Source: Bradyrhizobium sp. WSM471 (GTDB lineage Bacteria > Pseudomonadota > Alphaproteobacteria > Rhizobiales > Xanthobacteraceae). Taken from it: 64,000 nucleotides of DNA. Numbering within the stretch: the stretch's first letter is position 1; every line of letters starts with the position of its first letter. Under the pieces are notes generated by a model. That model worked only from the letters and a program-made list of their open reading frames with translations. It made no database searches and had not been told where the DNA came from. The position numbers and the translations under genes were made by a program. This document shows positions 2,184 through 47,633 of the stretch, in pieces. The stretch covers positions 6,646,012 to 6,710,011 of the forward strand of contig NZ_CM001442.1 of NCBI RefSeq assembly GCF_000244915.1, written 5' to 3'.

Positions 2184-4514
2184 TCAGGCGATCGATCGGG
2201 AGGACACCATGACGATCTGGTCCTCAGCCCCGCGACGTCCATGCGAGGCATTGAGCAATTGGCGAATCCGGACTGCCGGCACCGGCCGGCTGAACAGATA
2301 GCCCTGCCCTTCGGTCACGGTGCCGTCGGCGCTGATCAGCTCGAGCTGGTCATTGGTCTCGATGCCCTCGACCACGACGGCCATGCCGAGATCGGCCGAC
2401 AGCCGCGCCACGCCGCGCAGCAGCGTCAGCGGCCGGTCGGCATCGATGCCTTCGAGGAAGGAGCGGTCGATCTTCACCTTCTGCATCGGGAAATTGTGCA
2501 GGTAGCTGAGGCTCGAATAGCCGGTGCCGAAATCATCCAGCGAAATGCGCACGCCGATCGCATGCAATTGCGACAGGATGTCGTGCGTGAGCTGGGTGTT
2601 GCGCAACAGCGAGGATTCGGTGATCTCGATCTCCAGCCGATGCGCCGGGAGCCCCGAAACCTCGAGTGCGTAGCGGATTTCGCTCAAGACGTCGCGCTGG
2701 TGGAATTGCTGCGGCGAGAAGTTGACGGCGACGCTGACGCCCTCCGGCCATTTCATGCATTCCATGCAGGCGCGGCGCAGGATCCAGCGGCCGAGATCGA
2801 CGATCAGCCCCATGTCCTCGGCGACCGGGATGATGTCGATCGGCGAGACCGTGCCGCGCACCGGATGATTCCAGCGCAGCAGCGCCTCGCACGTCGTGAT
2901 CTTGCCGGACTTCAGATTGACCAGCGGCTGGTAGAACAGCTCGAATTCCTCGTTGGCGAGCGCCTTGCGCAGATCGAGCTCGAGGATGCGGCGCGCCTCG
3001 ACGGTCGCCGCCATCTCGTCGCGGAAGAAGCAGAAGGTGCCGCGGCCGTCGGCCTTGGCCCGGTACAGCGCCATGTCGGCGTTCTTGAGCAGCGTGTCCG
3101 CGCTGACGCCCTCCGGCGAGGTCAGCGCGATGCCGACGCTGGCACCGATCTCGACCAGATGATTGTCGATGCGGTAGCGCTCGCTCAGCCGCTCGACGAT
3201 CCGGCGCGCCAGTGCAGCGGCGTCCTCCGGCGAGGAGATGTTCTCCTGGAACACGACGAATTCGTCACCGCCGAAGCGGGCGACGAAATCCTCCGGGCGC
3301 AGCATCTCGCGCAGACGGTTGGCGACCGCGCACAGCAGCTGATCGCCGCAGGGATGGCCGAGCGTGTCGTTGACCTGCTTGAACTGGTCGAGGTCGACGA
3401 ACAGCAGCGCGGACAGGCGCTCGGAATCGTGCGAGATCGCCAGCAGCCTTTCGATCTCATCGCGAAAATGAACGCGGTTGGGGAGCGCGGTGAGGTCGTC
3501 GTAGCGCGCCAGATGCGTAATCTTGGCTTCGGCGCTGCGACGGTCGGTAATGTCCTCGAGCAGCACCACCGCGCCGCCGTCAGCCATCGGCTGGACAGTC
3601 CAGGACAACGACCGGTTTCGCTGCGTATCGGGATCGGCGGTGATGATCTCCTTGGCTTGCGAACTCTCGATGTCCGCGACGATCCGCTCGCCGCTCCCAG
3701 CCGAGATGGATCCGGCGCTGACGCATGCCGCGACGATGTCACGCGCGTTGACGCCGCGTTGCGCCAGACCTTCCGGCAGATTCATCATTGCGCCGAAGCG
3801 GTGGTTCATGACCGCCAACTGTCCGTCGACGCGGAACATGCACAGGCCGTGCGGCATGTTGTTCAGCGCCGTGTCGAACTGGCCGGCGAGCGCGGCTTCA
3901 CGCTCCCGTGCCACGACCGCTCCCATGAAGATTCGGTGCAGATTCACCGAGAGCTGCATGATCGCCATCAGGAACGCGGCACTGACCAGCGCCATCGCGA
4001 TGTAGTAGGGCGTTCCACGCAGCGCCAAGGCAAGCACGGCCGGGCCGAAAATCAGCACGGCCTGGAGGTGGAAGATCGCAGGCCGGCCATATGCCCTGCC
4101 CGCGCCGCCCGCCGCGATTCCGGTGGTGACCGACAAGGCGATCATGTGGGCCACGGCGTCGTCCGTGGCCAACAGGGCCGTGGCGCACCAGATGCCGATC
4201 GCAGCCGCCTGGATCTTTGCCCCGATCTGATATCGCTTCTGCCAGCGTGCGGCCGCCTCGACAGTCATGACCGCCTGACGTGCCTGATAGAGGCGCAGGT
4301 CGATCGCCCGCGCGGTCCCGGCCAGGACAAGAAGTGCGACGCACGCCCAGATCAGCGGCTCGCCCGTCCTCAGCGCGGTCAGGGCCGCACCAATCGACAC
4401 GAAAATGAGTCCGGCCAGCAGCGGACCAGGCGCTTCGAACAGCGAATCGATTTGCGCCGCCGAAGTTTTCGGCGGCCGCTGTTCCGGCTCTCCGCTCTGA
4501 CTTGCAAACTGCAT
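2184..4514 (-). CDS. membrane PAS-GGDEF-EAL cyclic di-GMP turnover protein
   Basis: 776 aa. About six hydrophobic segments occupy residues 30-200, followed by a PAS-like sensor (about 215-330), a diguanylate cyclase domain and an EAL phosphodiesterase domain. The cyclase signature GGDEF is intact at residues 415-419 and has an inhibitory I-site RxxD (RPED, 406-409) exactly five residues upstream. The EAL motif is intact (543-545), with the downstream DDFGTGYSS loop and VVEGIET. Both activities are therefore possible; the net activity cannot be predicted. It lies downstream of tolB but beyond the hairpin at 4716-4745, so it likely has separate transcription. No convincing Shine-Dalgarno precedes this ATG. 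Confidence 0.92.
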   Translation of the reverse strand: MQFASQSGEPEQRPPKTSAAQIDSLFEAPGPLLAGLIFVSIGAALTALRTGEPLIWACVALLVLAGTARAIDLRLYQARQAVMTVEAAARWQKRYQIGAKIQAAAIGIWCATALLATDDAVAHMIALSVTTGIAAGGAGRAYGRPAIFHLQAVLIFGPAVLALALRGTPYYIAMALVSAAFLMAIMQLSVNLHRIFMGAVVAREREAALAGQFDTALNNMPHGLCMFRVDGQLAVMNHRFGAMMNLPEGLAQRGVNARDIVAACVSAGSISAGSGERIVADIESSQAKEIITADPDTQRNRSLSWTVQPMADGGAVVLLEDITDRRSAEAKITHLARYDDLTALPNRVHFRDEIERLLAISHDSERLSALLFVDLDQFKQVNDTLGHPCGDQLLCAVANRLREMLRPEDFVARFGGDEFVVFQENISSPEDAAALARRIVERLSERYRIDNHLVEIGASVGIALTSPEGVSADTLLKNADMALYRAKADGRGTFCFFRDEMAATVEARRILELDLRKALANEEFELFYQPLVNLKSGKITTCEALLRWNHPVRGTVSPIDIIPVAEDMGLIVDLGRWILRRACMECMKWPEGVSVAVNFSPQQFHQRDVLSEIRYALEVSGLPAHRLEIEITESSLLRNTQLTHDILSQLHAIGVRISLDDFGTGYSSLSYLHNFPMQKVKIDRSFLEGIDADRPLTLLRGVARLSADLGMAVVVEGIETNDQLELISADGTVTEGQGYLFSRPVPAVRIRQLLNASHGRRGAEDQIVMVSSRSIA

Positions 4515-13186: not shown

Positions 13187-13549
13187 CTAGCCGCCGGGGA
13201 TCGGGAGCACCGGCATGATCTCGACGCGTTCGCCGGGGAAGATCGTGAAATGCGGATGGTTCTCGAACATCTTGGCCGCGGCTTCATGGGATGCCGCGCG
13301 CACCACGGTGAATGCGCCCATCTCGTTGGCGATGTCGGCGAGGCCCTTGCCGTCCACCTTCTTGGTCTTACCGAGCGGCCCGCCCATGGCCTCGATCGCG
13401 CCCTGGTGCTTTTCCACCCAGCCCTTCCAGGCCGCCATGCCCTCCTGCTCCTTTGCTTTGCGCTCGACCTCGGGCATCGCATTCCATGCGGCCCATTTGG
13501 AGCTGGTCTTGCTGCCGAGGAAAACGGCGAGATAGGTGTCGGTGCTCAT
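13187..13549 (-). CDS. YciI/DGPF-related small protein
   Basis: 120 aa, no signal peptide or membrane segment. The pattern MSTDTYLAVFLG, a basic helix with KAKEQEGMAAWKGWVEKH, a GPLGKTKKVD turn and a C-terminal HPHFTIFPGERVEIMPVLPIPGG resembles YCII-related dimeric alpha/beta-barrel proteins. No enzymatic activity is established for this type. It lies 39 bp after another YciI gene (13589-13993) on the same strand and probably shares its ECF-type promoter at 14091-14117. Confidence 0.8.
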   Translation of the reverse strand: MSTDTYLAVFLGSKTSSKWAAWNAMPEVERKAKEQEGMAAWKGWVEKHQGAIEAMGGPLGKTKKVDGKGLADIANEMGAFTVVRAASHEAAAKMFENHPHFTIFPGERVEIMPVLPIPGG

Positions 13550-13588: not shown

Positions 13589-13993
13589 CTATTTCTTCAG
13601 GTCGCCGAAACCGGCGGCGGCCTCCTGCACGTCAGGCGGAAAGTCGCTCATCTCCTGCACCTGACGGATCTCGATGATTTCGTTCGGTGCGGCCGGACAC
13701 CGCCTGGCCCAGGCGATCGCCTCGGCACGCGAGGTAACCTCGATCATCCAGTAGCCGCCCAGGACCTCCTTGGCCTCGGCGAACGGACCATCAGTCACGA
13801 TGGGCTTGCCGGCCGCAAATGAGACGCGCGCGCCCATCGACGGCGGGTGCAGGCCGTCGAGCGTGATCAGCACGCCGGCGTCCTTCAGCGCCTCGTTGTA
13901 GCGCATCATCGCAGCAACCCGCTCGGGATCCAGTTGAACGTCGGGCGCTGCGGTCTCGTAGCCGAGCGGGATCATCAGCATCATGAATCGCAT
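13589..13993 (-). CDS. YciI (DGPF domain) family protein
   Basis: 134 aa from the ATG at 13991-13993, chosen because AAGGA lies six to seven bases upstream; the ATG two codons earlier is too close to it. It has the family signature TDGPFAEAKEVLGGYWMIEV in the middle and the usual MRFMMLMIP start. DGPF proteins are small ferredoxin-like-fold proteins that are typical neighbours and targets of ECF42-type sigma factors; the biochemical role is open. The element TGTCGG-N17-CGTC lies about 100 bp upstream, the same as before the sigma factor operon at 21713-21739. Confidence 0.9.
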   Translation of the reverse strand: MRFMMLMIPLGYETAAPDVQLDPERVAAMMRYNEALKDAGVLITLDGLHPPSMGARVSFAAGKPIVTDGPFAEAKEVLGGYWMIEVTSRAEAIAWARRCPAAPNEIIEIRQVQEMSDFPPDVQEAAAGFGDLKK

Positions 13994-14090
13994 GAGCATT
14001 CCTTGCGTGCTTTTGTCGTTCGGGTTGCGCGGCGAGGCGCCACTCCGGATGGACGGGAGCGACGGCCCGGGCCGCCCGCCCTCACCTCCA

Positions 14091-14117
14091 AGACGAAGGA
14101 ACCTTGGCGAAACCGAC
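14091..14117 (-). promoter_or_regulatory. ECF-type promoter for the YciI pair
   Basis: On the minus strand: TGTCGG, exactly 17 bp, then CGTCTT. Identical hexamer, spacing and CGTC core occur upstream of three other genes in this window (14550-14576, 19931-19957, 21713-21739). It predicts a leader of roughly 90 nt before the YciI start at 13993. Confidence 0.72.
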
Positions 14118-14155
14118 AGGTGACGAAAATTATTCTGGAGATTGTTGGCTGGCTG

Positions 14156-14518
14156 CTAGCGGGGCTGCGGCAGGAAACGCCCGTCCTGCCGGGCAGCGCC
14201 GAAATAAACCTCGATGCGGCGAACCTTGTCGCCGGCAAAGGTGAAGAACTCCGTGTTGCGAAAGCTCCTGCCATCTGTCGCCAAGCAAAAATAGGTGACG
14301 AAGGCCTCGTCGCCTTGGACGAAAATCCGCTCGATGTCGTGCCTTACGATCCAGCCGGTGTCCTTCCAGCAGCGCCCGAAATAGGCCGCCTTGTCGAGGT
14401 CTTCGTCGAACGGGCTGGTGAAGCGGAAATCGTCGGCCAACGCGTCGGCGACCTGTTGCCGGTCGTTGCCGAGATAGGCGGCGAAGAGGTCCCGAATCAG
14501 GCGCTCGGGATTGGTCAT
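14156..14518 (-). CDS. NTF2-like / SnoaL-like small protein
   Basis: 120 aa, single NTF2-like cone fold. An N-terminal helix (NPERLIRDLFAAYLGNDRQQVADALADDFRFTSPFDEDLD) is followed by paired beta-strands ending in RNTEFFTFAGDKVRRIEVYFG. Members are small hydrolase/isomerase-like or ligand-binding proteins; no catalytic role can be assigned here. It is the first of three small genes in a row. TGTCGG-N17-CGTC lies 32 bp upstream of its ATG, so ECF control is inferred. Confidence 0.85.
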   Translation of the reverse strand: MTNPERLIRDLFAAYLGNDRQQVADALADDFRFTSPFDEDLDKAAYFGRCWKDTGWIVRHDIERIFVQGDEAFVTYFCLATDGRSFRNTEFFTFAGDKVRRIEVYFGAARQDGRFLPQPR

Positions 14519-14835
14519 CGAACGGCTCCGTAATCAACATCGTCTTGAAGACGATTGACGCGCAGCCGCGCCGACATCACGTCCGGCAGCAACCACGCGA
14601 AAAATAATGCACGCGGCGGCCCGTACAAATACGGCTCGTTCTATGACCGCCGCCGTGCATATGAATCAAGAATGCTTGCAACCTGAGCAACATGGCGGAC
14701 GCGTGCGAAATACAGAGCGGGCAACGTCTCGTGCAGGAATTTACAGTTGCTAAAGAAGCCCATGCAACTTTTTAGCTTGAGCGAAACGGTATGACAATCC
14801 GGCTGATTCGCCCCTCAGCATTAGGCGGAGCTTAC
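14519..14835. other. intergenic region between NTF2-like gene and chemoreceptor
   Basis: 317 bp between divergent genes. It holds the ECF-type promoter at 14550-14576 on the minus strand and the ribosome site of the chemoreceptor. The central part (14640-14790) is relatively AT-rich and presumably carries the chemoreceptor promoter; no clear consensus was found. Confidence 0.55.
14550..14576 (-). promoter_or_regulatory. ECF-type promoter for the NTF2-like gene
   Basis: On the minus strand: TGTCGG, 17 bp, CGTCTTCAA. The nine bases CGTCTTCAA are identical to those in the sigma operon's own promoter at 21713-21739. It is placed about 30 bp before the start codon. Confidence 0.76.
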
Positions 14836-16500
14836 GTGTTCAATTTCCAAAGCAAGAAAGTCAGGCACGCGATCGCGGAAGTCGAGGCGCTCGACCGGTC
14901 CCAGGCCGTGATCGAATTCGGCCTCGACGGCACCATTCTCGATGCCAACGAAAATCTCCTCAAGATGAGCGGCTATACGCTCTCGGAGATCAAGGGTAAG
15001 CATCACAGCATCTTCGTCAGCCCGACTGAACGCGAGAGCGCCCGTTACCGCGACTTCTGGGCCAGCCTGAACCGCGGCGAGTTCCAGACCACGCAATACA
15101 AGCGCTTCGGCAAGAACGGCAAGGAAGTCTGGGTCCACGCCTCCTACGCGCCGCTGCGCGACGAGAACGGCAAGGTGGTCAGCTTCATCAAGTTCGCCAC
15201 CGACATCACGGCATACAAGGTCAAGACCATGGAGGACGCGGGCAAGATCGCCGCCGTCAACCGTGCCCAGGCCGTGATCGAATTCGACATGGACGGCACC
15301 ATCCTCACCGCCAACGAGAATTTCCTGGGCGCAATGGGCTACTCGCTCGACGAGATCCAGGGCAAGCACCACAGCATGTTCGTGACGCCGGAGGATCGCG
15401 CGAGCTCTGCCTATGCCGACTTCTGGGCGCGGCTGAACCGCGGCCAGTTCGAAGCCGCCGAATACAAGCGGATCGGCAAGGGCGGACGCGAAATCTGGAT
15501 TTTGGCAACCTACAACCCGATCCTCGATGAGATGGGCAGGCCGTTCAAGGTAGTGAAGTTTGCGACCGACGTCACCGCGCAGAAGATGAAGGCGGCCGAC
15601 AATGACGGACAGCTCGCCGCGATCCAGAAATCGCAAGCGGTGATCGAATTCAACATGGACGGCACCATCCGCACCGCCAACGAGAACTTCTTGAAGGCGA
15701 TGGGGTATTCGCTGGCAGAGATCAAGGGACAGCACCACTCCATGTTCGTCGAGCCGAACGTGAAGAATTCGACGGCCTACCGCCAGTTCTGGGAGACGCT
15801 CAACCGCGGCGAATACCAGGCCGCCGAATACAAGCGGATCGCCAAGGGCGGCCGCGAAATCTGGATCCAGGCGTCCTACAACCCGATCCTCGACCTCAAC
15901 GGAAAACCCTACAAGGTGGTGAAATATGCCACCGACATCACCGCGCAGGCGATCGGCCGCAAGAAGGCCGACAACGCGCGCGGTCTGATCGAGGCGGTCG
16001 CGGCCGGCAGCGAAGAGATGAGCGCCTCGATCCGCGAGATCTCCGCGACCATGGCGAAGTCGCGCGAGAATTCGAAGGTCGCGACCACCCGCGTCGAGGC
16101 CGCCGATGGCCAGGCGCAGCGGCTGAACGCAGCGGCGCAGGCGATGAGCGGCATCGTCGAGATGATCTCGGGCATCACCGGCCAGATCAACCTGCTCGCG
16201 CTCAACGCCACGATCGAATCGGCGCGCGCGGGCGAAGCCGGCCGCGGCTTCGCCGTGGTCGCCTCCGAGGTGAAGAGCCTAGCCAATCAGGCCAAGCAGG
16301 CGACCGACACCATCACATCAGAAATCGACGCGCTGAACACCATCTCCGGCGACGTTGCAAGCTCGCTGACCGCAATCAAGGTCGCCATCGCCGGCGTCAA
16401 CGAGTTCATCGCCTCTACCGCCGCCGCGGTCGAGGAACAGAGCATCGTGACGGCCGACATGTCGGCCAACATGCAGCGCGCCACGGCGGAGCTGGCCTAG
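14836..16500 (+). CDS. soluble methyl-accepting chemotaxis protein with three tandem PAS domains
   Basis: 554 aa from the GTG at 14836, preceded by AGGCGGAG at 14823-14830; an upstream ATG at 14791 has no good ribosome site. Three near-identical PAS domains (about residues 17-130, 140-252 and 262-374) are repeated with an exact period of 122 codons. Each has QAVIEF..DGTI..ANENFL and [11 protein letters not shown] cores and ends in FATDITA. A short MCP signalling domain (about 385-554) has the conserved hairpin tip [18 protein letters not shown]. No membrane helix, so it is a cytoplasmic receptor, perhaps haem- or flavin-binding. No C-terminal CheR/CheB docking pentapeptide is seen, and the gene is far from any che operon in this window. 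Confidence 0.93.
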
Positions 16501-16620
16501 GCCGACCTGCGCGGCCGCAACAGGAGAGCCTCGACGAGCTAAAGGCGCGATAGTTTGTCGCGTCTCCTCGCGGCTTTCGTGGTAGGGAGACCGCCTCAAT
16601 TCCCGAACCACGGATAAGCT

Positions 16621-17409
16621 ATGACCGCCTCCCCGCAGAAAATCGCCCTCGTTACCGGAGCCGCACGCGGCATCGGGCTTGCGACCGCGAAGAAATTTTT
16701 GACCGAGGGCTGGCGGGTGGCATTGCTCGACATCGAAGGCGAGCTGCTCGGCCGCGCGGTCGCCGAGATCGGCCGGGACGAAGCCACGCTGGCGTTGACC
16801 TGCGACGTCTCGGACGCAGCCGCGGTTGCCACCGCGATGACGACGGTCGAACAGCGGTTTGGCCGGCTCGACGCGCTCGTCAACAATGCCGGCATTGCCG
16901 TGTTCGCGCCGCTGATGGAGACGTCGGAGACCGATTGGCGGCGCGTGCTCGAGGTCAACCTCACCGGCCCGTTCCTCTGCACCAAGGCGGCGGTGCCGCT
17001 GATGCGCGACGGCAATGGCGGCGCCATCGTCAACGTCACCTCGATCTCGGCGGTGCGCGCCTCGACGCTGCGCTCGGCCTACGGCACCAGCAAGGCGGGC
17101 CTCGCGCACCTCACCAAGCAGCTCGCGGTCGAGCTCGCGTCCCTCAACATCCGCGTCAACGCGGTCGCGCCGGGACCGGTCGACACCGCGATGGCGAAGC
17201 AGGTGCACACCAGGGAGATCCGCGCCGACTATCACGACGCCATCCCGCTCAACCGCTACGGCCTGGAAGAGGAACTCGCCGAAGCCATCTACTTCCTGTG
17301 CTCGGAACGATCCAGCTACATCACCGGCCAAATTTTGGCCGTCGATGGCGGCTTCGATGCGGCGGGCATCGGCCTGCCGACGCTGCGCGGCGAACGGCGG
17401 AACGGATAG
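16621..17409 (+). CDS. short-chain dehydrogenase/reductase
   Basis: 262 aa classical SDR. Cofactor motif TGAARGIG (TGxxxGxG) near residue 12, structural NNAG (about 88-91), and catalytic Ser in the TSISAVRAS segment with YGTSK (Tyr-x-x-x-Lys). A C-terminal YITGQILAVDGGF motif is typical of the FabG-like subgroup. Asp after the second strand (LLDIEGE) suggests NAD(H) preference. The substrate is unknown. It is a monocistronic gene 120 bp after the chemoreceptor. Confidence 0.94.
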   Translation: MTASPQKIALVTGAARGIGLATAKKFLTEGWRVALLDIEGELLGRAVAEIGRDEATLALTCDVSDAAAVATAMTTVEQRFGRLDALVNNAGIAVFAPLMETSETDWRRVLEVNLTGPFLCTKAAVPLMRDGNGGAIVNVTSISAVRASTLRSAYGTSKAGLAHLTKQLAVELASLNIRVNAVAPGPVDTAMAKQVHTREIRADYHDAIPLNRYGLEEELAEAIYFLCSERSSYITGQILAVDGGFDAAGIGLPTLRGERRNG

Positions 17410-17491
17410 ACACGGCGCAGGTTGGCCTAGCGAAGCGTCACCCACCTCTTCTCGTCGGCCTATCCCACGGACTCGAATTCGCGGAGGCTTC

Positions 17492-17929
17492 ATGCGACGC
17501 GTCACCTTGCTCAGAGCCTTGATGCTCGCATCCGCGCTGCTCGCCGCCACGCCTGCCTCGGCCGAAATCCGCATCGTCCAGTCGCCCGGTGGACAGGTCG
17601 GGCCGTTCCTCGATTTGTTCGAGAAGGTGCGCGAGAGCGGCGAGCGCGTGGTGATCGACGGTCCCTGCCTGTCCGCCTGCACGCTGGTACTGAGCATCGT
17701 GCCGGGCGAGCGGATATGCGTCACCAAGCGTGCCGTGCTCGGCTTCCATGCGGCGCGCTCGATCGATCGGCGCGGACGCTTCTACGCCGAGCCGGAAGCA
17801 TCAGATGCGGTGCTTGCGGCCTATCCCGGCCCGGTGCGCGACTGGATCAGCCGCCGCGGCGGCCTCTCGTCGCGGTTGCTTCTGCTGAAGGGACGCGACC
17901 TCGCCGCGATCTATCCGCGCTGCCGGTGA
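17492..17929 (+). CDS. secreted ClpP/crotonase-like-fold protein of unknown function
   Basis: 145 aa from the ATG at 17492, with GGAGG five bases upstream. A longer open frame starting further upstream would overlap the SDR gene and is rejected. It has a clear signal peptide (MRRVTLLRALMLASALLAATPASAE, cleavage after ASA). The mature part has VIDGPCLSACT, with a Ser in a nucleophile-like turn, and VLGFHAAR, whose His could pair with it, as in periplasmic ClpP-like proteins of the COG3904 type. Catalysis is inference. No operon partner. Confidence 0.78.
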   Translation: MRRVTLLRALMLASALLAATPASAEIRIVQSPGGQVGPFLDLFEKVRESGERVVIDGPCLSACTLVLSIVPGERICVTKRAVLGFHAARSIDRRGRFYAEPEASDAVLAAYPGPVRDWISRRGGLSSRLLLLKGRDLAAIYPRCR

Positions 17930-18079
17930 TGATCAGGCGGACGCAAGCGCCCGCACGGTAGGGCCGCGCAACGACACCGCCTCGATGATCGCGAGCGTCA
18001 ACTTCACGGCCATCGCGTTGCACGTGAGCCAGCGAACAAGCGCGCCGGCAAAATTGCGCCGGTCACATGCTTCGTGAGT

Positions 18080-18172
18080 CTAGTAAAAGCTCTGGATCAG
18101 CTGGGCCAATTCCATGCTCGCGCAGATGAGCATACCCCAAAGTGCAAAGTTGATCTGCAGCGCCGCCGCCAT
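18080..18172 (-). CDS. 30-residue hydrophobic micro-protein
   Basis: A 31-codon frame starts at the ATG 18170-18172 and ends at TAG 18080-18082. The peptide begins MAAALQINFALWGMLICAS and ends MELAQLIQSFY, one hydrophobic helix with a polar C-terminus. The ribosome site is unusually good: GGAAGGGGAG lies six to seven bases before the ATG, against a non-coding background. An AT-rich stretch (about 18205-18245) upstream on the same strand could supply the promoter. Function unknown. The case rests on the ribosome site, coding composition and isolated position between larger genes. Confidence 0.62.
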   Translation of the reverse strand: MAAALQINFALWGMLICASMELAQLIQSFY

Positions 18173-18457
18173 CGGTCGCTCCCCTTCCAAGTCCGCCCGC
18201 CCCAGTTTTTAGAATTTATGACGAAATAAATAACGATTCTGTCCCGGAGTTCACAGCCTAATATTGCGCCAGTTGTTGTGCGATGCGGTCCGCATGATTT
18301 CACGAAGCGGCCTCACTGCTCTCGCAATGTGGTGCGACAGCAACATCCATATTCGGCCGTGTCGGCCAGGCGTTTCCCTTAGGTTCCATTTGAGCGGTGC
18401 GAGGCAAGCTTCGGCAAGCGGACTTTGCGCGTCGCATACAACACCCAAGGGCCCGGC
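18173..18457. other. intergenic region around AT-rich patch
   Basis: 285 bp. 18205-18245 is strikingly AT-rich (TTTTTAGAATTTATGACGAAATAAATAACG in two parts) compared with its surroundings and is a likely promoter zone for the minus-strand micro-ORF. The open frames through the rest look non-coding. Confidence 0.45.
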
Positions 18458-18811
18458 ATGATACGACACGGCTTTGTCTTGCTCACTTTTTGCGCAACGC
18501 TCATGGGATGCGTGGTCGCGCCTGCGCAGGAACGCCGTCCGATCGCATGGGACGGCCTCGGTCAGGATCCGAACCGTCCCTCCGTCATCAAGCGTCGTGT
18601 GGCGACCCAAGCTCCCGCGGCGAGTGATTCGAATCAGGAGCGGGAGAGAGTCCTCGGCACCTTGCGCCCGTACTCCGCGGCATGGTGGGCAATCCATGAC
18701 GAAATCGAAGCGGAGAATGACAGGCAGCTCGGGACCAAGCTCGTAATCTGTCCGCGCTGCGTTCCCTCCTCCCAACCACCGAGCAATGACGTGACCGGAT
18801 CGATCCGCTGA
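18458..18811 (+). CDS. small putative lipoprotein of unknown function
   Basis: 117 aa from the ATG at 18458 (AAGGG seven bases upstream). The N-terminus MIRHGFVLLTFCATLMGC ends in a lipobox-like LMGC at Cys18. The body is hydrophilic with a conserved-looking RPYSAAWWAIHDEIEAENDRQLGTKLVIC block and a CPRC pair, and the tail ends NDVTGSIR. I recognise this as a rhizobial hypothetical protein type but no domain. It is a single gene converging with the VOC gene; a hairpin at 18858-18886 lies between. Confidence 0.72.
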   Translation: MIRHGFVLLTFCATLMGCVVAPAQERRPIAWDGLGQDPNRPSVIKRRVATQAPAASDSNQERERVLGTLRPYSAAWWAIHDEIEAENDRQLGTKLVICPRCVPSSQPPSNDVTGSIR

Positions 18812-18857
18812 TAGGGCACGCGGTCGATCGGCCCATGACGCAACGTCCTCATGCGCG

Positions 18858-18886
18858 CCCCTCTCCCGCATCGTCGTGGAGAGGGG
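18858..18886. terminator. hairpin between convergent lipoprotein and VOC genes
   Basis: CCCCTCTCC and GGAGAGGGG form a perfect 9-bp stem with an 11-nt loop, 47 bp after the plus-strand stop and 34 bp after the minus-strand stop. It probably serves as a two-way terminator. It may be a degenerate copy of the dispersed palindromic repeats found at 50949-51055. Confidence 0.6.
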
Positions 18887-18919
18887 ATCGCCGCTTGGCG
18901 CGTCAGGCGATCGCGCCTG

Positions 18920-19333
18920 TCACATTCCCTCGGCCGGGCAATTCACCATCCAGGGAATGCCGAACTTGTCGACGCACATGCCAAAACCCTTGGCCCAAAA
19001 GGTCTTGCTGAAGGGCATGGTGACGTTGCCGCCATCGGCGAGCGCGTTGAACTTGCGCTCGCCCTCCGCCGGGTCCGCGACCGTGAGCGAGATCGAAAAG
19101 CCCTGCGGCTTGTGACGATGCTCGGGCGGCGCATCCGACCCCATCAGCACGCTGCCGTCGGGTAGCGACATCCGCGCATGCATGATCGTCTTCTCGCGGC
19201 CGGGCGCCGCGGCCATGTCCGGCGGTGCGTCCGACGAACGCATCATGGCGTCGATCTTGCCGCCGAGAACCTTGGCGTAATAATTGAACGCCGCTTCGCA
19301 GGTGTCCTGATAGAACAGATAGGGATTGAGCAT
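18920..19333 (-). CDS. VOC family (PhnB-like) protein
   Basis: 137 aa. Two beta-alpha-beta-beta-beta modules of the vicinal oxygen chelate fold: the LNPYLFYQDTCEAAFNYYAKVLGGK start, the HARMSLPDGSVLMGSDAPP centre, and the GGNVTMPFSKTFWAKGFGMCVDKFGIPWMVN end. This is the PhnB/3-demethylubiquinone-methyltransferase-like subgroup, whose members are mostly of unknown activity. It lies 37 bp after the SRPBCC gene on the same strand and probably is transcribed with it from the ECF-type promoter at 19931-19957. Confidence 0.9.
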   Translation of the reverse strand: MLNPYLFYQDTCEAAFNYYAKVLGGKIDAMMRSSDAPPDMAAAPGREKTIMHARMSLPDGSVLMGSDAPPEHRHKPQGFSISLTVADPAEGERKFNALADGGNVTMPFSKTFWAKGFGMCVDKFGIPWMVNCPAEGM

Positions 19334-19370
19334 CGTTTCTCTCCGTTTTGCTTTCGTTCGGGTGACGGCG

Positions 19371-19904
19371 CTACTTCTCGGTGAGCTTCTTCAGGCTGGC
19401 CAGGCCCGCCTCGAAATCCTTGCCGATCATGTTGTCCATGTTGATGAACACCTGCATGACCTTGGACAGGAACGGGGCCGGACCGGACATCGCCCACGTG
19501 ACCAGTGTGGCATCGCCTTGCGGCACAAAGGTGAACTCGGCGGTGTTGTGGCCTTCGAAAGGCCGCTCGAAATCGAGCTTGATGCGTAGTTTTGACGGCG
19601 CACTCGCCTCGAGGATCTCCATATGGCCGGCGCCGACATTGTTGTTGCCGTCCCAGGCATAGGTCGCGCCCCTTCCTTCGGTTCCGCCGAATCTGCGCTT
19701 CATGGCGGGATCGCGGCCCTCGTAGGGGGACCAGGCCGTCCAGCGATGGAAATCGGCGACCAAGGGATAGACCGCATTGGCCGGCGCTTTCACGGCGAGG
19801 CTGCGCTCGACGCGGAATGTGTCGGGCTTCGTCAGGGCGAGGCCGAGCACGCCCACGATTCCGACCGCGAGCAGGATGACGATGACGGCAATGGCTTTCA
19901 ACAT
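19371..19904 (-). CDS. SRPBCC family protein with N-terminal membrane anchor
   Basis: 177 aa from the ATG at 19902-19904, with AGGGAG upstream. One N-terminal hydrophobic helix (LKAIAVIVILLAVGIVGVLGLAL) is followed by a START/Bet v1-like hydrophobic-pocket domain (about residues 30-170, with FHRWTAWSPYEGRDPAMKR and LRIKLDFERPFEGHNTAEFTF). It is commonly annotated as polyketide cyclase/dehydrase-like; ligand unknown. First gene of a two-gene unit with the VOC protein, and it carries the TGTCGG-N17-CGTC element 27 bp upstream. Confidence 0.9.
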   Translation of the reverse strand: MLKAIAVIVILLAVGIVGVLGLALTKPDTFRVERSLAVKAPANAVYPLVADFHRWTAWSPYEGRDPAMKRRFGGTEGRGATYAWDGNNNVGAGHMEILEASAPSKLRIKLDFERPFEGHNTAEFTFVPQGDATLVTWAMSGPAPFLSKVMQVFINMDNMIGKDFEAGLASLKKLTEK

Positions 19905-19930
19905 GAATGGCTCCCTGGATACGCTCCTAG

Positions 19931-19957
19931 GACGAAGGGAGGGGGTCGAGCCCGACA
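19931..19957 (-). promoter_or_regulatory. ECF-type promoter for the SRPBCC-VOC unit
   Basis: On the minus strand: TGTCGG, 17 bp, CGTCCT. One of four copies in the window with identical -35 hexamer and spacing. Confidence 0.7.
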
Positions 19958-19998
19958 AGGCGAAGCAAAAATTTTGCAACGCCCGAAACAGGCGCTCC

Positions 19999-21315
19999 CT
20001 ACTTCACCTTGGCGCCTTCGACCTTGGCGTCTTGCCTGGCGCCGCCATTTGCGCCCTTGGGCTGGCTGTCCCGGATCAGGCGATCGAGATGCATGCGGAT
20101 GTGAGCCGCTTCTGCGGACGTGTTAGCGAGGGCGATGGCGCGGTCGAAGGCGATGCGGGCTTCGTCGTTGCGGCCGAGCTGCATCAGGAAGGCGCCGCGC
20201 ACGCCGTAGAAGTGGAAGTAGTTGGCAAGCTTTGGCGCCAGCGGCTCGATCAGGTCGAGCGCGGCTTGCGGTCCGCGCACCTTGGAAACCGCGACCGCGC
20301 GGTTGAGCGTCACCACCGGCGAGGGCTGAACCACCTCCAGCGCACCATAGAGCAGGTCGATCTGCGCCCAGTCGGTCTCCGCGGGCGTGGACGCGCGGGC
20401 ATGCAGCGCGGCAATCGCGGCCTGGATCTGGTAGGGCCCGCTGCGGCGATGGCGTATCGCCTTGTCGATCAGCGCGAGGCCTTCCGCGATCATCGTGCCG
20501 TTCCACAGCGAACGATCCTGGTCGTCCAGCAGGATCAGCGAGCCATCCGCGGCAAAGCGCGAGGCACTGCGCGCATGCTGCAACAAGATGAGCGCCGTGA
20601 GGCCCATGATCTCCGGCTCGCTCTGGAACAGCCGCAACAGCAGCCGCGCCAGCCGGATCGCTTCCTCGCACAGCGGCTTTCTGATCTCGGCGGTGTCGCC
20701 GCTCGCCGAGTAGCCTTCGTTGAAGATCAAATAGATCATCGCGGCGACGACGGCGAGCCGCTCCGAGCGCTCGACCGCGCCCGGCGTTTCAAATGGTGTA
20801 CCGGCCTCCGCGACCTTGGCCTTGGCACGCGTGATGCGCTGCTCCATCGCCGCATCCGACACCAGGAAGGCGCGCGCGATCTGCTTCACCGTCAGGCCGC
20901 AGACGATACGGAGCGCCAGCGCGATCTGCTGCGTCGCCGGCAGGCCTGGATGGCAGCAGATGAACATCAGCCGCAAAATGTCGTCGCGGTAGTGCGAGCC
21001 GTCGAGCCGCTCCGCGAGCGCGCCCTCAGCGTCGTCGAGATCGGAGATCGCCTGGTCGTCCTCCGGCAGCGGCTGCTGCTTGCGGGTGCGGCGCACTTCG
21101 TCGATCGCAACGTTGCGGCCGACCATGATCAGCCAGGCCGCGGGATCGCGAGGCGGCCCGTTCTGCGGCCAGGTCTTCAGCGCGCGCAGGCAGGCGTTCT
21201 GGAAGGCCTCCTCCGCGGTGTCGAGATCCCGGAAATAGCGCAGCAGTGCGCCGACCGCCTGGGGGCGCGCCGAGGTCAGCGCGGTCTCGATCCAGGCGGT
21301 ATCGGCCTCGCTCAC
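19999..21315 (-). CDS. ECF42-type RNA polymerase sigma factor with C-terminal TPR-like extension
   Basis: 438 aa, far longer than a plain ECF sigma. Sigma-2 region about residues 10-80 (AEEAFQNACLRALKTWPQNGPPRDPAAWLIMVGRNVAIDEVRR), sigma-4 about 110-170 (QIALALRIVCGLTVKQIARAFLVSDAAMEQRITRAKAKV). A roughly 250-residue helical extension follows, with the IFNEGYSAS and LNRAVAV motifs of the COG4941/ECF42 group. No anti-sigma gene is adjacent; in this group the extension is thought to control activity. The start is GTG at 21313-21315, overlapping the YciI stop as GTGA, so translation is coupled. Its likely promoter is 21713-21739. Confidence 0.93.
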   Translation of the reverse strand: MSEADTAWIETALTSARPQAVGALLRYFRDLDTAEEAFQNACLRALKTWPQNGPPRDPAAWLIMVGRNVAIDEVRRTRKQQPLPEDDQAISDLDDAEGALAERLDGSHYRDDILRLMFICCHPGLPATQQIALALRIVCGLTVKQIARAFLVSDAAMEQRITRAKAKVAEAGTPFETPGAVERSERLAVVAAMIYLIFNEGYSASGDTAEIRKPLCEEAIRLARLLLRLFQSEPEIMGLTALILLQHARSASRFAADGSLILLDDQDRSLWNGTMIAEGLALIDKAIRHRRSGPYQIQAAIAALHARASTPAETDWAQIDLLYGALEVVQPSPVVTLNRAVAVSKVRGPQAALDLIEPLAPKLANYFHFYGVRGAFLMQLGRNDEARIAFDRAIALANTSAEAAHIRMHLDRLIRDSQPKGANGGARQDAKVEGAKVK

Positions 21316-21680
21316 GTCAGATTCCCTCCGGGCCTGAACACGCCGACGGGGCGCACCTCGTAGGCGCCGCCGGGATTGGCGGCGCCGAGGTCGCGGGCGA
21401 CATCGAGTGCGTCATCGAGATTCTTGCAATCCACGATATAGAAGCCGAGCAACTGCTCCTTGGTCTCCGCGTAGGGGCCGTCGAGCACCAACGGCGGGTC
21501 CTCCTTGCGCAGCGTCGCTGCCGCAGTGGTCGGCAGCAGCCGCGCCACCGGGCCGAGCCGGCCCTGCTGTGTCAGCTTCTCCTGCACCACGGCGAGCTTC
21601 TTCATCACGGCCTCATCCTGGTCCTTGCTCCATGAGCCGACGAAGTCCTCGTCGTGATAGCAAAGGATCGCATAAAGCAT
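21312..21680 (-). CDS. YciI (DGPF domain) partner of the ECF42 sigma factor
   Basis: 122 aa from the ATG at 21678-21680; GAGAAGG lies eight bases upstream, so the longer frame to 21785 is rejected. It has the family motif LDGPYAETKEQLLGFYIVDC. Genes of this type sit next to ECF42 sigma genes in many bacteria. Here the two reading frames overlap by four bases (GTGA), with the YciI gene first. The unit starts with the promoter-like TGTCGG-N17-CGTCTTCAA, indicating autoregulation. Confidence 0.93.
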   Translation of the reverse strand: MLYAILCYHDEDFVGSWSKDQDEAVMKKLAVVQEKLTQQGRLGPVARLLPTTAAATLRKEDPPLVLDGPYAETKEQLLGFYIVDCKNLDDALDVARDLGAANPGGAYEVRPVGVFRPGGNLT

Positions 21681-21712
21681 GGGCAGTACCTTCTCTGAAC
21701 GCTTGTTTTGAA

Positions 21713-21739
21713 GACGATCCACTATGCCCCGCCCCGACA
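21713..21739 (-). promoter_or_regulatory. autoregulatory ECF-type promoter of the YciI-sigma operon
   Basis: On the minus strand: TGTCGG, 17 bp, CGTCTTCAA, ending 33 bp before the YciI start codon. It shares the 9-base -10 region exactly with 14550-14576. Confidence 0.78.
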
Positions 21740-46765: not shown

Positions 46766-47633
46766 CGGAACACCTCCGCGTAACGGCGCTCGATCAGCGC
46801 GTTGCTGCCGACGACAATCAGCACCAGCGCGGCCAGCAGCAGCGTGGCAACCGCCGCACCCAGCGGCCAGTTCAGCGTGTTGAGGAATTCGTCATAAGCG
46901 AGCGTCGCCGCGACCTTGAGTCGGCGGCCGCCGATGATGGCGGGCGTCGCAAACGCACTGGCCGAGAGCGAGAACACGATGATCGCCCCCGACAGCACGC
47001 CCGGCATGATCTGCGGCATGATGATGCGGCGGATGATGGTCACAGGGGCGGCGCCGAGCGACATCGCGGCATTCTCGATCTGCGGATCGAGACGCTGCAG
47101 CGCCGCCCACACCGACAGCACCATGAACGGCATCATCACGTGCGCAAGCGCGACAACCATACCGGTTTCGGTGAACATGAAGGGGATAGGCGCGCGGATC
47201 AGCCCGGCCGACATCAGCAGCTTGTTGACGAGCCCGTTGTTGCCGCCGAACAGCAGCGCCCAGCCGAGCGTCCTCGCCACCACGGAAATCAGCAGCGGCC
47301 CCAGGATGACCAGCAGGAAAACGCTCTTCCAGCGTCCGCTCATGCGGTTGAGGATGTAGGCCTCGGGCGCACCGAGCAGTGCGGTGAGCAGCGTGGTCAG
47401 GATCGCGATGCGAAACGTCCGCCAGAACATCTCGGCGTAATAGGGATCGGTTACGATCTCGCGCCAGTTCTTGAGGATGAAGACGGGCTCGATGCCCTTG
47501 TACTGGCCCCAATCGTGGAACGACAGCATCACGGTCATTGCCAGCGGAATCAGGAGCACGCCGAAGAACAACATCAAGGCGGGCGCGGTCAGCGCCCAGG
47601 GCGTGCGTGCGTTTCGTTCCTCGGCGGAAGCGC

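Follow-up and report, generated by a model that had tools for sequence, protein, structure and literature searches.

The window analysed here is a stretch of 64,000 nucleotides (positions 6646012–6710011 of the 7.78-Mb chromosome of Bradyrhizobium sp. WSM471) that carries, on its minus strand, the gene for an extracytoplasmic function (ECF) sigma factor of the ECF42 type together with genes for YciI, SRPBCC, VOC and NTF2-like proteins. Four copies of a two-box element, TGTCGG-N17-CGTC, precede these genes, and the regulon that they would define is the subject of this work. The locus consists of the following features:

21713..21739, minus strand: putative promoter element of the YciI-sigma operon, TGTCGG-N17-CGTC, with CGTC 32 bp 5' of the YciI ATG
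21312..21680, minus strand: YciI (YCII/DGPF) protein, gene 1 of the sigma operon (Pfam YCII, 6.4e-20)
19999..21315, minus strand: ECF42-type sigma factor with a C-terminal extension (Sigma70_r2, Sigma70_r4_2, DUF6596)
19931..19957, minus strand: putative promoter element of the SRPBCC-VOC unit, CGTC 26 bp 5' of the ATG
19371..19904, minus strand: SRPBCC (Polyketide_cyc2) protein (Pfam, 4.5e-14)
18920..19333, minus strand: VOC protein (glyoxalase/3-dmu-9_3-mt by Pfam), gene 2 of the SRPBCC-VOC unit, with no element of its own
14550..14576, minus strand: putative promoter element of the NTF2-like gene, CGTC 31 bp 5' of the ATG
14156..14518, minus strand: NTF2-like (SnoaL_2) protein (Pfam SnoaL_2, 2.5e-08)
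14092..14118, minus strand: putative promoter element of the YciI pair, located between the NTF2-like gene and the pair, CGTC 92 bp 5' of the first YciI
13589..13999, minus strand: YciI protein, first of the pair (Pfam YCII, 2.5e-22)
13187..13549, minus strand: YciI-like protein, second of the pair (Pfam YCII, 3.4e-4, slightly under the cut-off), with no element of its own

Exact matches to TGTCGG-N17-CGTC number five in the window, all on the minus strand, compared with 0.40 expected, and none of 100 shuffles reached five. The fifth match (47091–47117, minus strand) falls within a coding frame (locus L030). The other four are upstream of same-strand genes, with 26–92 bp between CGTC and the start codon, and finding four of the genome's 31 matches packed into 8.15 kb is an event of Poisson probability ~4.5e-8. 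The original prediction, made from the letters of this stretch, had described four identical elements; all are present on the strand given, with one pair of coordinates shifted by a single base (14092–14118, not 14091–14117), and their sameness is limited to the ten fixed bases, the spacers not being alike. The nine bases described as common to two copies, CGTCTTCAA, are real but form part of a longer shared stretch of 11 bases, ATCGTCTTCAA.

The sigma factor contains Sigma70_r2 (6.5e-12) and Sigma70_r4_2 (1.2e-10) domains and scores past the cut-off of TIGR02937; only regions 2 and 4 are found, as is characteristic of the ECF type. They are followed by a C-terminal extension of ~270 residues that includes DUF6596 (1.9e-33). 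Matches to TPR motifs within the extension (residues 369–413) are sub-threshold, with TPR_2 at residues 372–398 (0.0012) under the Pfam cut-off. The extension is helical in the predicted structure, a low-confidence model built with only 7 similar sequences (mean predicted local distance difference test score 50.3, with blocks of ~61–85 in residues 281–410), and many of the top matches to this model in a fold comparison were TPR proteins at template modelling scores of only ~0.15–0.26. The YCII gene typical of the neighbourhood of this group, also known as DGPF, lies directly 5' of the sigma gene with an overlap of 4 bp, and no anti-sigma family was found by Pfam among the four nearest genes (YciI, SRPBCC, VOC and a divergent 2-hydroxyacid dehydrogenase). 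The locus also carries the promoter sequence of the group, TGTCGG-N17-CGTC, as described for Sinorhizobium meliloti RpoE10. With regions 2 and 4, DUF6596 and the adjacent YciI gene all present, the earlier assignment of the protein to ECF42 is upheld.

Across the genome, 31 exact matches were found, compared with 13 for the reversed pattern. Genes around the matches were called by a simple codon-usage script, and a site was defined as promoter-placed when its CGTC lay at most 101 bp 5' of a same-strand start. By this definition 14 sites are promoter-placed, 14 are within genes and three are elsewhere (L005, L012 and L021), and at most of the 14 promoter-placed sites the distance to the start codon is 26–41 bp. 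CGTC alone proved too unspecific; with CGTCYT, 15 sites remain at a spacing of 17, and 13 of them are promoter-placed. The original prediction had named an equal frequency of the motif inside genes or before unrelated genes as the outcome that would count against it, and this was not seen with CGTCYT, although the looser form does fall in genes at 14 of 31 sites. The other spacings (12–16 and 18–22) gave 70 sites with CGTCYT, 63 of which were in genes, six elsewhere and one promoter-placed (Fisher 1.9e-12 against N17), ruling out that spacings other than 17 serve equally well. The raw spacing histogram is weak by itself, with 15 sites at N17, 12 at N12 and 13 at N21; N14 and N20, which share the phase of N17, have one site each, and the in-gene counts by spacing are probably due to coding-frame periodicity.

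Ten of the 14 promoter-placed sites are outside the window, and the description of the regulon as local was therefore too narrow. These sites precede the following genes, given by locus:

L003 (genome 879103–880029): Ku
L007 (genome 2078023–2078946): Ku
L008: VOC protein, then a 3-dmu-9_3-mt VOC protein
L011: AHSA1 protein, with CGTCAT
L014: MFS transporter
L016: GST
L018: YciI protein
L020: AHSA1 protein
L024: VOC protein
L025: GST, running on into a second GST

L024 and L025 form a divergent pair with sites 117 bp apart, and the two Ku promoters resemble each other and are not independent. As had been proposed, a scan of the genome gave an excess of YciI, VOC, SRPBCC and NTF2-like genes, with 9 of the 14 promoter-placed sites ahead of such genes and two more ahead of GST genes. 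When GST was joined to the class, which was done after the data were seen and departs from the earlier list, 11 of 14 promoter-placed genes belonged to it compared with 0 of 30 background genes drawn randomly from 70 complete frames in control loci (Fisher 4.7e-8).

When one mismatch was allowed in TGTCGG-N17-CGTCYT, 79 sites were gained over the 15 exact ones, for a total of 94. The 82 loci classified (the 79 one-mismatch sites, two duplicates and one exact in-gene site) comprised nine promoter-placed, 55 in genes and 18 elsewhere. Among the nine, the AHSA1 gene of L011 had already been counted, L324 belongs to no family, and L334 and L339 lay outside the family scan. Sites at LysM (L163), MotA/ExbB (L318) and 2-hydroxyacid dehydrogenase (L344) genes appear unrelated to the regulon. 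The DUF2277 gene (L342) is a possible member, whereas a DUF1428 gene (L319 1053–1415) does fit the regulon and is a possible extra target. The site at the DUF1428 gene reads GGTCGG-N17-CGTCCT and ends 28 bp before the start.

Conservation was assessed in 80 sigma relatives from named genomes at 86–98% identity, of which 79 carry Bradyrhizobium in their title and one carries Frankia sp. The sigma-operon site was exact at all 80 loci, and no opposite-strand match was found at them, while the reversed control gave two matches in 1.63 Mb. For orthologues with at least 50% identity and enough upstream DNA, the exact element preceded the YciI gene of the sigma operon in 79 of 79 and the SRPBCC gene in 72 of 79, the other seven consisting of five TGTCGA variants, one 18-bp spacer and one with no element. 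It was likewise found at 28 of the 32 NTF2-like orthologues present in the 80 loci and at 57 of 75 orthologues of the first YciI of the pair (64 of 75 with TGTC(G/T)(G/A)), with no TGTC(G/T)(G/A)-N17-CGTC within 450 bp of the remaining 11. The second genes carry no element within 200 bp (0 of 77 VOC and 0 of 75 second YciI orthologues). Natural variation among the relatives takes the form of TGTCGA, TGTCTG or an 18-bp spacer in several, with the altered spacing in few. The 80 loci hold 259 exact sites, of which the script placed 242 at promoters, eight in genes and nine elsewhere, and it misplaces a few, as some of the in-gene and elsewhere calls are the sigma-operon site itself. In the 242 promoter-placed sites a T precedes CGTC in 86%, and a Y and then a T follow it in 99%, giving a refined element of TGTCGG-N16-T-CGTC-Y-T.

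At the level of the order, the exact element was present 5' of the YciI-sigma operon in 25 of 29 loci (the best 30 matches with the window's own locus excluded; sigma 68–96% identity) from 12 families; of the other four loci, three had a near-miss and one had nothing. The sigma-operon spacers diverge widely between some families. The abundance of the motif was also compared with the presence of the sigma factor in 199 genomes of the order, scoring at most eight sigma candidates per genome and defining a close ECF42 by E below 1e-150. The ratio of motif to reversed control was 2.14 (942/440) where a close ECF42 was present (39 genomes), 1.01 (452/448) where the only full-length relative was a distant one (48 genomes) and 1.28 (1018/797) in the other 112, the first and last classes differing by a Mann-Whitney value of 1.6e-13, uncorrected for shared descent. 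What the computation shows is the element itself, together with its spacing, placement and conservation.

As separate observations made by eye, the SRPBCC protein (19371–19904) has a hydrophobic N-terminal stretch, possibly serving as a membrane anchor or signal, and a gene for a chemotaxis-like protein with three repeated sensor-like segments occupies 14791–16500, divergent from the NTF2-like gene.

The dispersed targets were examined by searching 31 genomes of the genus and reading 30 loci per gene, covering the promoters other than those of L011, L008, L018 and, beyond three loci of a second GST type, L016. The exact element was present at 21 of 30 MFS loci, with a near-miss in four of the other nine, and at 19 of 30 GST loci, missing at the three most distant GSTs; the second GST type (41–42% identity) has it at all three loci that hold this gene. 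For the VOC gene of L024, the 15 of 30 positive loci comprise 11 of 11 at ≥83% identity and 4 of 19 at ≤52%. The AHSA1 gene of L020 has the element at 12 of its 14 closest loci, the two misses being at 73–74% identity; this count covers 14 of the 30 loci, the other 16 being at ≤29%.

The Ku genes gave the sharpest boundary. The element is present at 20 of 22 loci with ≥82% identity to L003, starting at −60 to −65, and at 0 of 8 with 72–75% identity; among the Ku loci read (L003, L007 and L115–L144) it is limited to those at least 82% identical to L003. Among the close homologues the element is missing from L136 and L133; the 114 bp of upstream sequence present at L133 is sufficient to reveal such a site. 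Of the 13 Bradyrhizobium plasmid Ku rows listed, six were fetched and five carry the element (L449–L453), four of them from plasmids classed as conjugative. The EcfG/RpoE2 general stress promoter consensus is GGAAC-N16/17-CGTT. One plasmid Ku gene each from Microvirga ossetica and Sinorhizobium fredii (L455 and L456) is without the ECF42 element and has, 98 and 90 bp upstream respectively, GGAAC-N17-CGTT, which we take to be the EcfG box. In contrast, GGAA(C/T)-N15-18-(C/G)GTT is absent from the upstream 200 bp at 29 Bradyrhizobium Ku loci (all but L133), 20 of which carry the ECF42 element, and control of these Bradyrhizobium genes by EcfG was accordingly rejected. Ku-like genes and fragments are numerous in Bradyrhizobium, one of the 31 genomes having as many as 21 matches, and a DNA-ligase gene is annotated near the plasmid Ku in L451 and L453.

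Taken together, the four sites are very probably −35/−10 promoters for the ECF42 sigma factor at 19999–21315, which would control a dispersed regulon of detoxification-type genes plus one Ku clade and possibly its own operon. A well-conserved ECF42 regulon with an unexpected Ku branch is real; that the window sigma factor reads the elements in this genome, and that the Ku and transporter genes are among its targets, we infer from the sequence. In the proposed mechanism, the sigma factor would act as a one-component system, with the C-terminal extension (DUF6596 and putative TPR-like helices, the latter weakly supported) sensing a ligand or partner, and the signal probably acting through this extension to render the sigma active. 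The active holoenzyme would then recognise TGTCGG-N16-T-CGTC-Y-T and switch on the YciI, VOC, SRPBCC/AHSA1, SnoaL and GST genes, one MFS transporter and one Ku clade, with its own operon possibly among the targets. That VOC, GST, SRPBCC, SnoaL and YciI proteins recur along with a transporter suggests that a reactive small molecule is involved, and the Ku genes suggest that this molecule may break DNA. The purpose suggested by the gene list would be the removal of this molecule and the repair of DNA ends.

Several observations weigh against this assignment. Almost half of the exact matches in the genome fall within genes, the motif is in slight excess even in genomes that lack a close ECF42, and the genomes of the order are not phylogenetically independent, the counts being uncorrected. 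A GGCATA-like core recurs in the sigma-operon spacers of several families (L419–L447), such that the footprint at this operon is bound up with conservation over a longer stretch. According to PMC6180224, overexpressing RpoE10 in S. meliloti did not induce the YCII gene SMc01151, whose mapped start is overlapped by the motif; self-activation of the sigma operon is therefore doubtful. Finally, a second ECF42-like sigma in the same genome (47% identity; genome 6204185–6205312, L032), located beside a YciI-like gene, could share targets.

This second sigma is the basis of the strongest alternative, in which the elements are promoters read by a different ECF sigma factor such as the ECF42 paralogue or the general-stress EcfG. 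The Ku promoters do contain GGAAC within TGTCGGAAC, half of an EcfG box. However, the 4.1-kb locus of the paralogue has no element, even with TGTC(G/T)(G/A), N16–18 and CGT(C/T), the motif excess is absent from genomes with only distant ECF42 relatives, the complete EcfG-type box is missing from the Bradyrhizobium Ku loci, and the element accompanies the close sigma's own operon through 12 families, making this alternative unlikely. (Positions 3170–3690 of L032 resemble RNase P RNA.) We consider it very improbable that the element is instead an operator for another DNA-binding protein; the present evidence comes from sequence tests rather than from binding, but the two-box form, the 17-bp spacing and the short distance to the start codon are those of a promoter, and the same element lies at mapped S. 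meliloti starts, two of the operons being RpoE10-dependent (PMC6180224). Coincidental occurrence in a GC-rich genome, or a repeat with no regulatory role, would account for the copies inside genes and can be dismissed given the window expectation, the clustering probability, the spacing contrast and the positional conservation of the element upstream of orthologues from several families of unrelated genes.

One Bradyrhizobium Ku clade, including copies on conjugative plasmids, may have moved from EcfG to ECF42 control. End-joining repair, electrophile/xenobiotic detoxification and an exporter would then be co-induced in a single damage-limitation response, with the other Ku paralogues remaining outside. 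We judge this proposal as apt to be wrong as right. Within the open-licence literature, no paper was found joining an ECF sigma factor, non-homologous end joining and Ku protein, nor any on ECF42 with glyoxalase, ECF42 with DGPF, or YciI with an ECF sigma and glyoxalase. TGTCG and CGTC do not occur in the main text of the Bradyrhizobium transcription start site paper PMC4842269. The conserved 14-site regulon provides a concrete gene list for the ECF42 sigma class, and this list suggests testable inducers and a measurable output.

ECF42 sigma factors of Streptomyces venezuelae and Pseudomonas putida use a TGTCGA −35 sequence, which also occurs as a natural variant in relatives of the window locus. 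The S. venezuelae protein and P. putida ECF-10, from distant organisms, have in common with the window sigma a C-terminal extension; in the consulted sections of PMC8999054 and PMC9023288 this extension is TPR-rich and needed for activity, and control through protein interaction via the extension is proposed. The closest known system is that of S. meliloti, for which the following is taken from PMC6180224. RpoE10 is classified as ECF42, and TGTCGG-N17-CGTC is listed upstream of SMc01151, SMc01149-SMc01148 and SMb20475-SMb20474, three places mapped by RNA-seq or 5' rapid amplification of cDNA ends (5'-RACE). SMc01151 is the YCII gene next to rpoE10, SMc01149-SMc01148 encode hydrophobic-ligand domain and glyoxalase-like proteins, and SMb20475-SMb20474 is described as glyoxalase-like. 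Six genes rose upon overexpression of RpoE10, which induced the SMc01149-SMc01148 and SMb20475-SMb20474 operons, and S. meliloti devoid of all ECF sigma factors showed no major defects. In this work, one of the three sites was re-read directly in the pSymB sequence, and domain scans of the SMb20475-SMb20474 operon identified DUF4287 and VOC (3-dmu-9_3-mt).

Neither the promoter model nor the presence of SRPBCC and VOC proteins among the targets is therefore new, both being already in print, and of the three families that the original prediction added to the response, the NTF2-like protein is the one contributed here. As in S. meliloti, a YCII gene precedes the sigma gene, the element is exact, and in the consulted portion of the S. 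meliloti report an operon for hydrophobic-ligand and glyoxalase-like proteins is listed directly after the sigma gene. Unlike the RpoE10 system as described there, the genome of WSM471 has 14 promoter-placed sites, and NTF2-like, YciI pair, GST, AHSA1, MFS and Ku genes are not named among the RpoE10 targets. Judged from sequence, the NTF2-like gene and the YciI pair would be additional targets, and the wider regulon, with two GST units, two AHSA1 genes, further VOC and YciI genes, an MFS transporter and two Ku genes, looks to be new.

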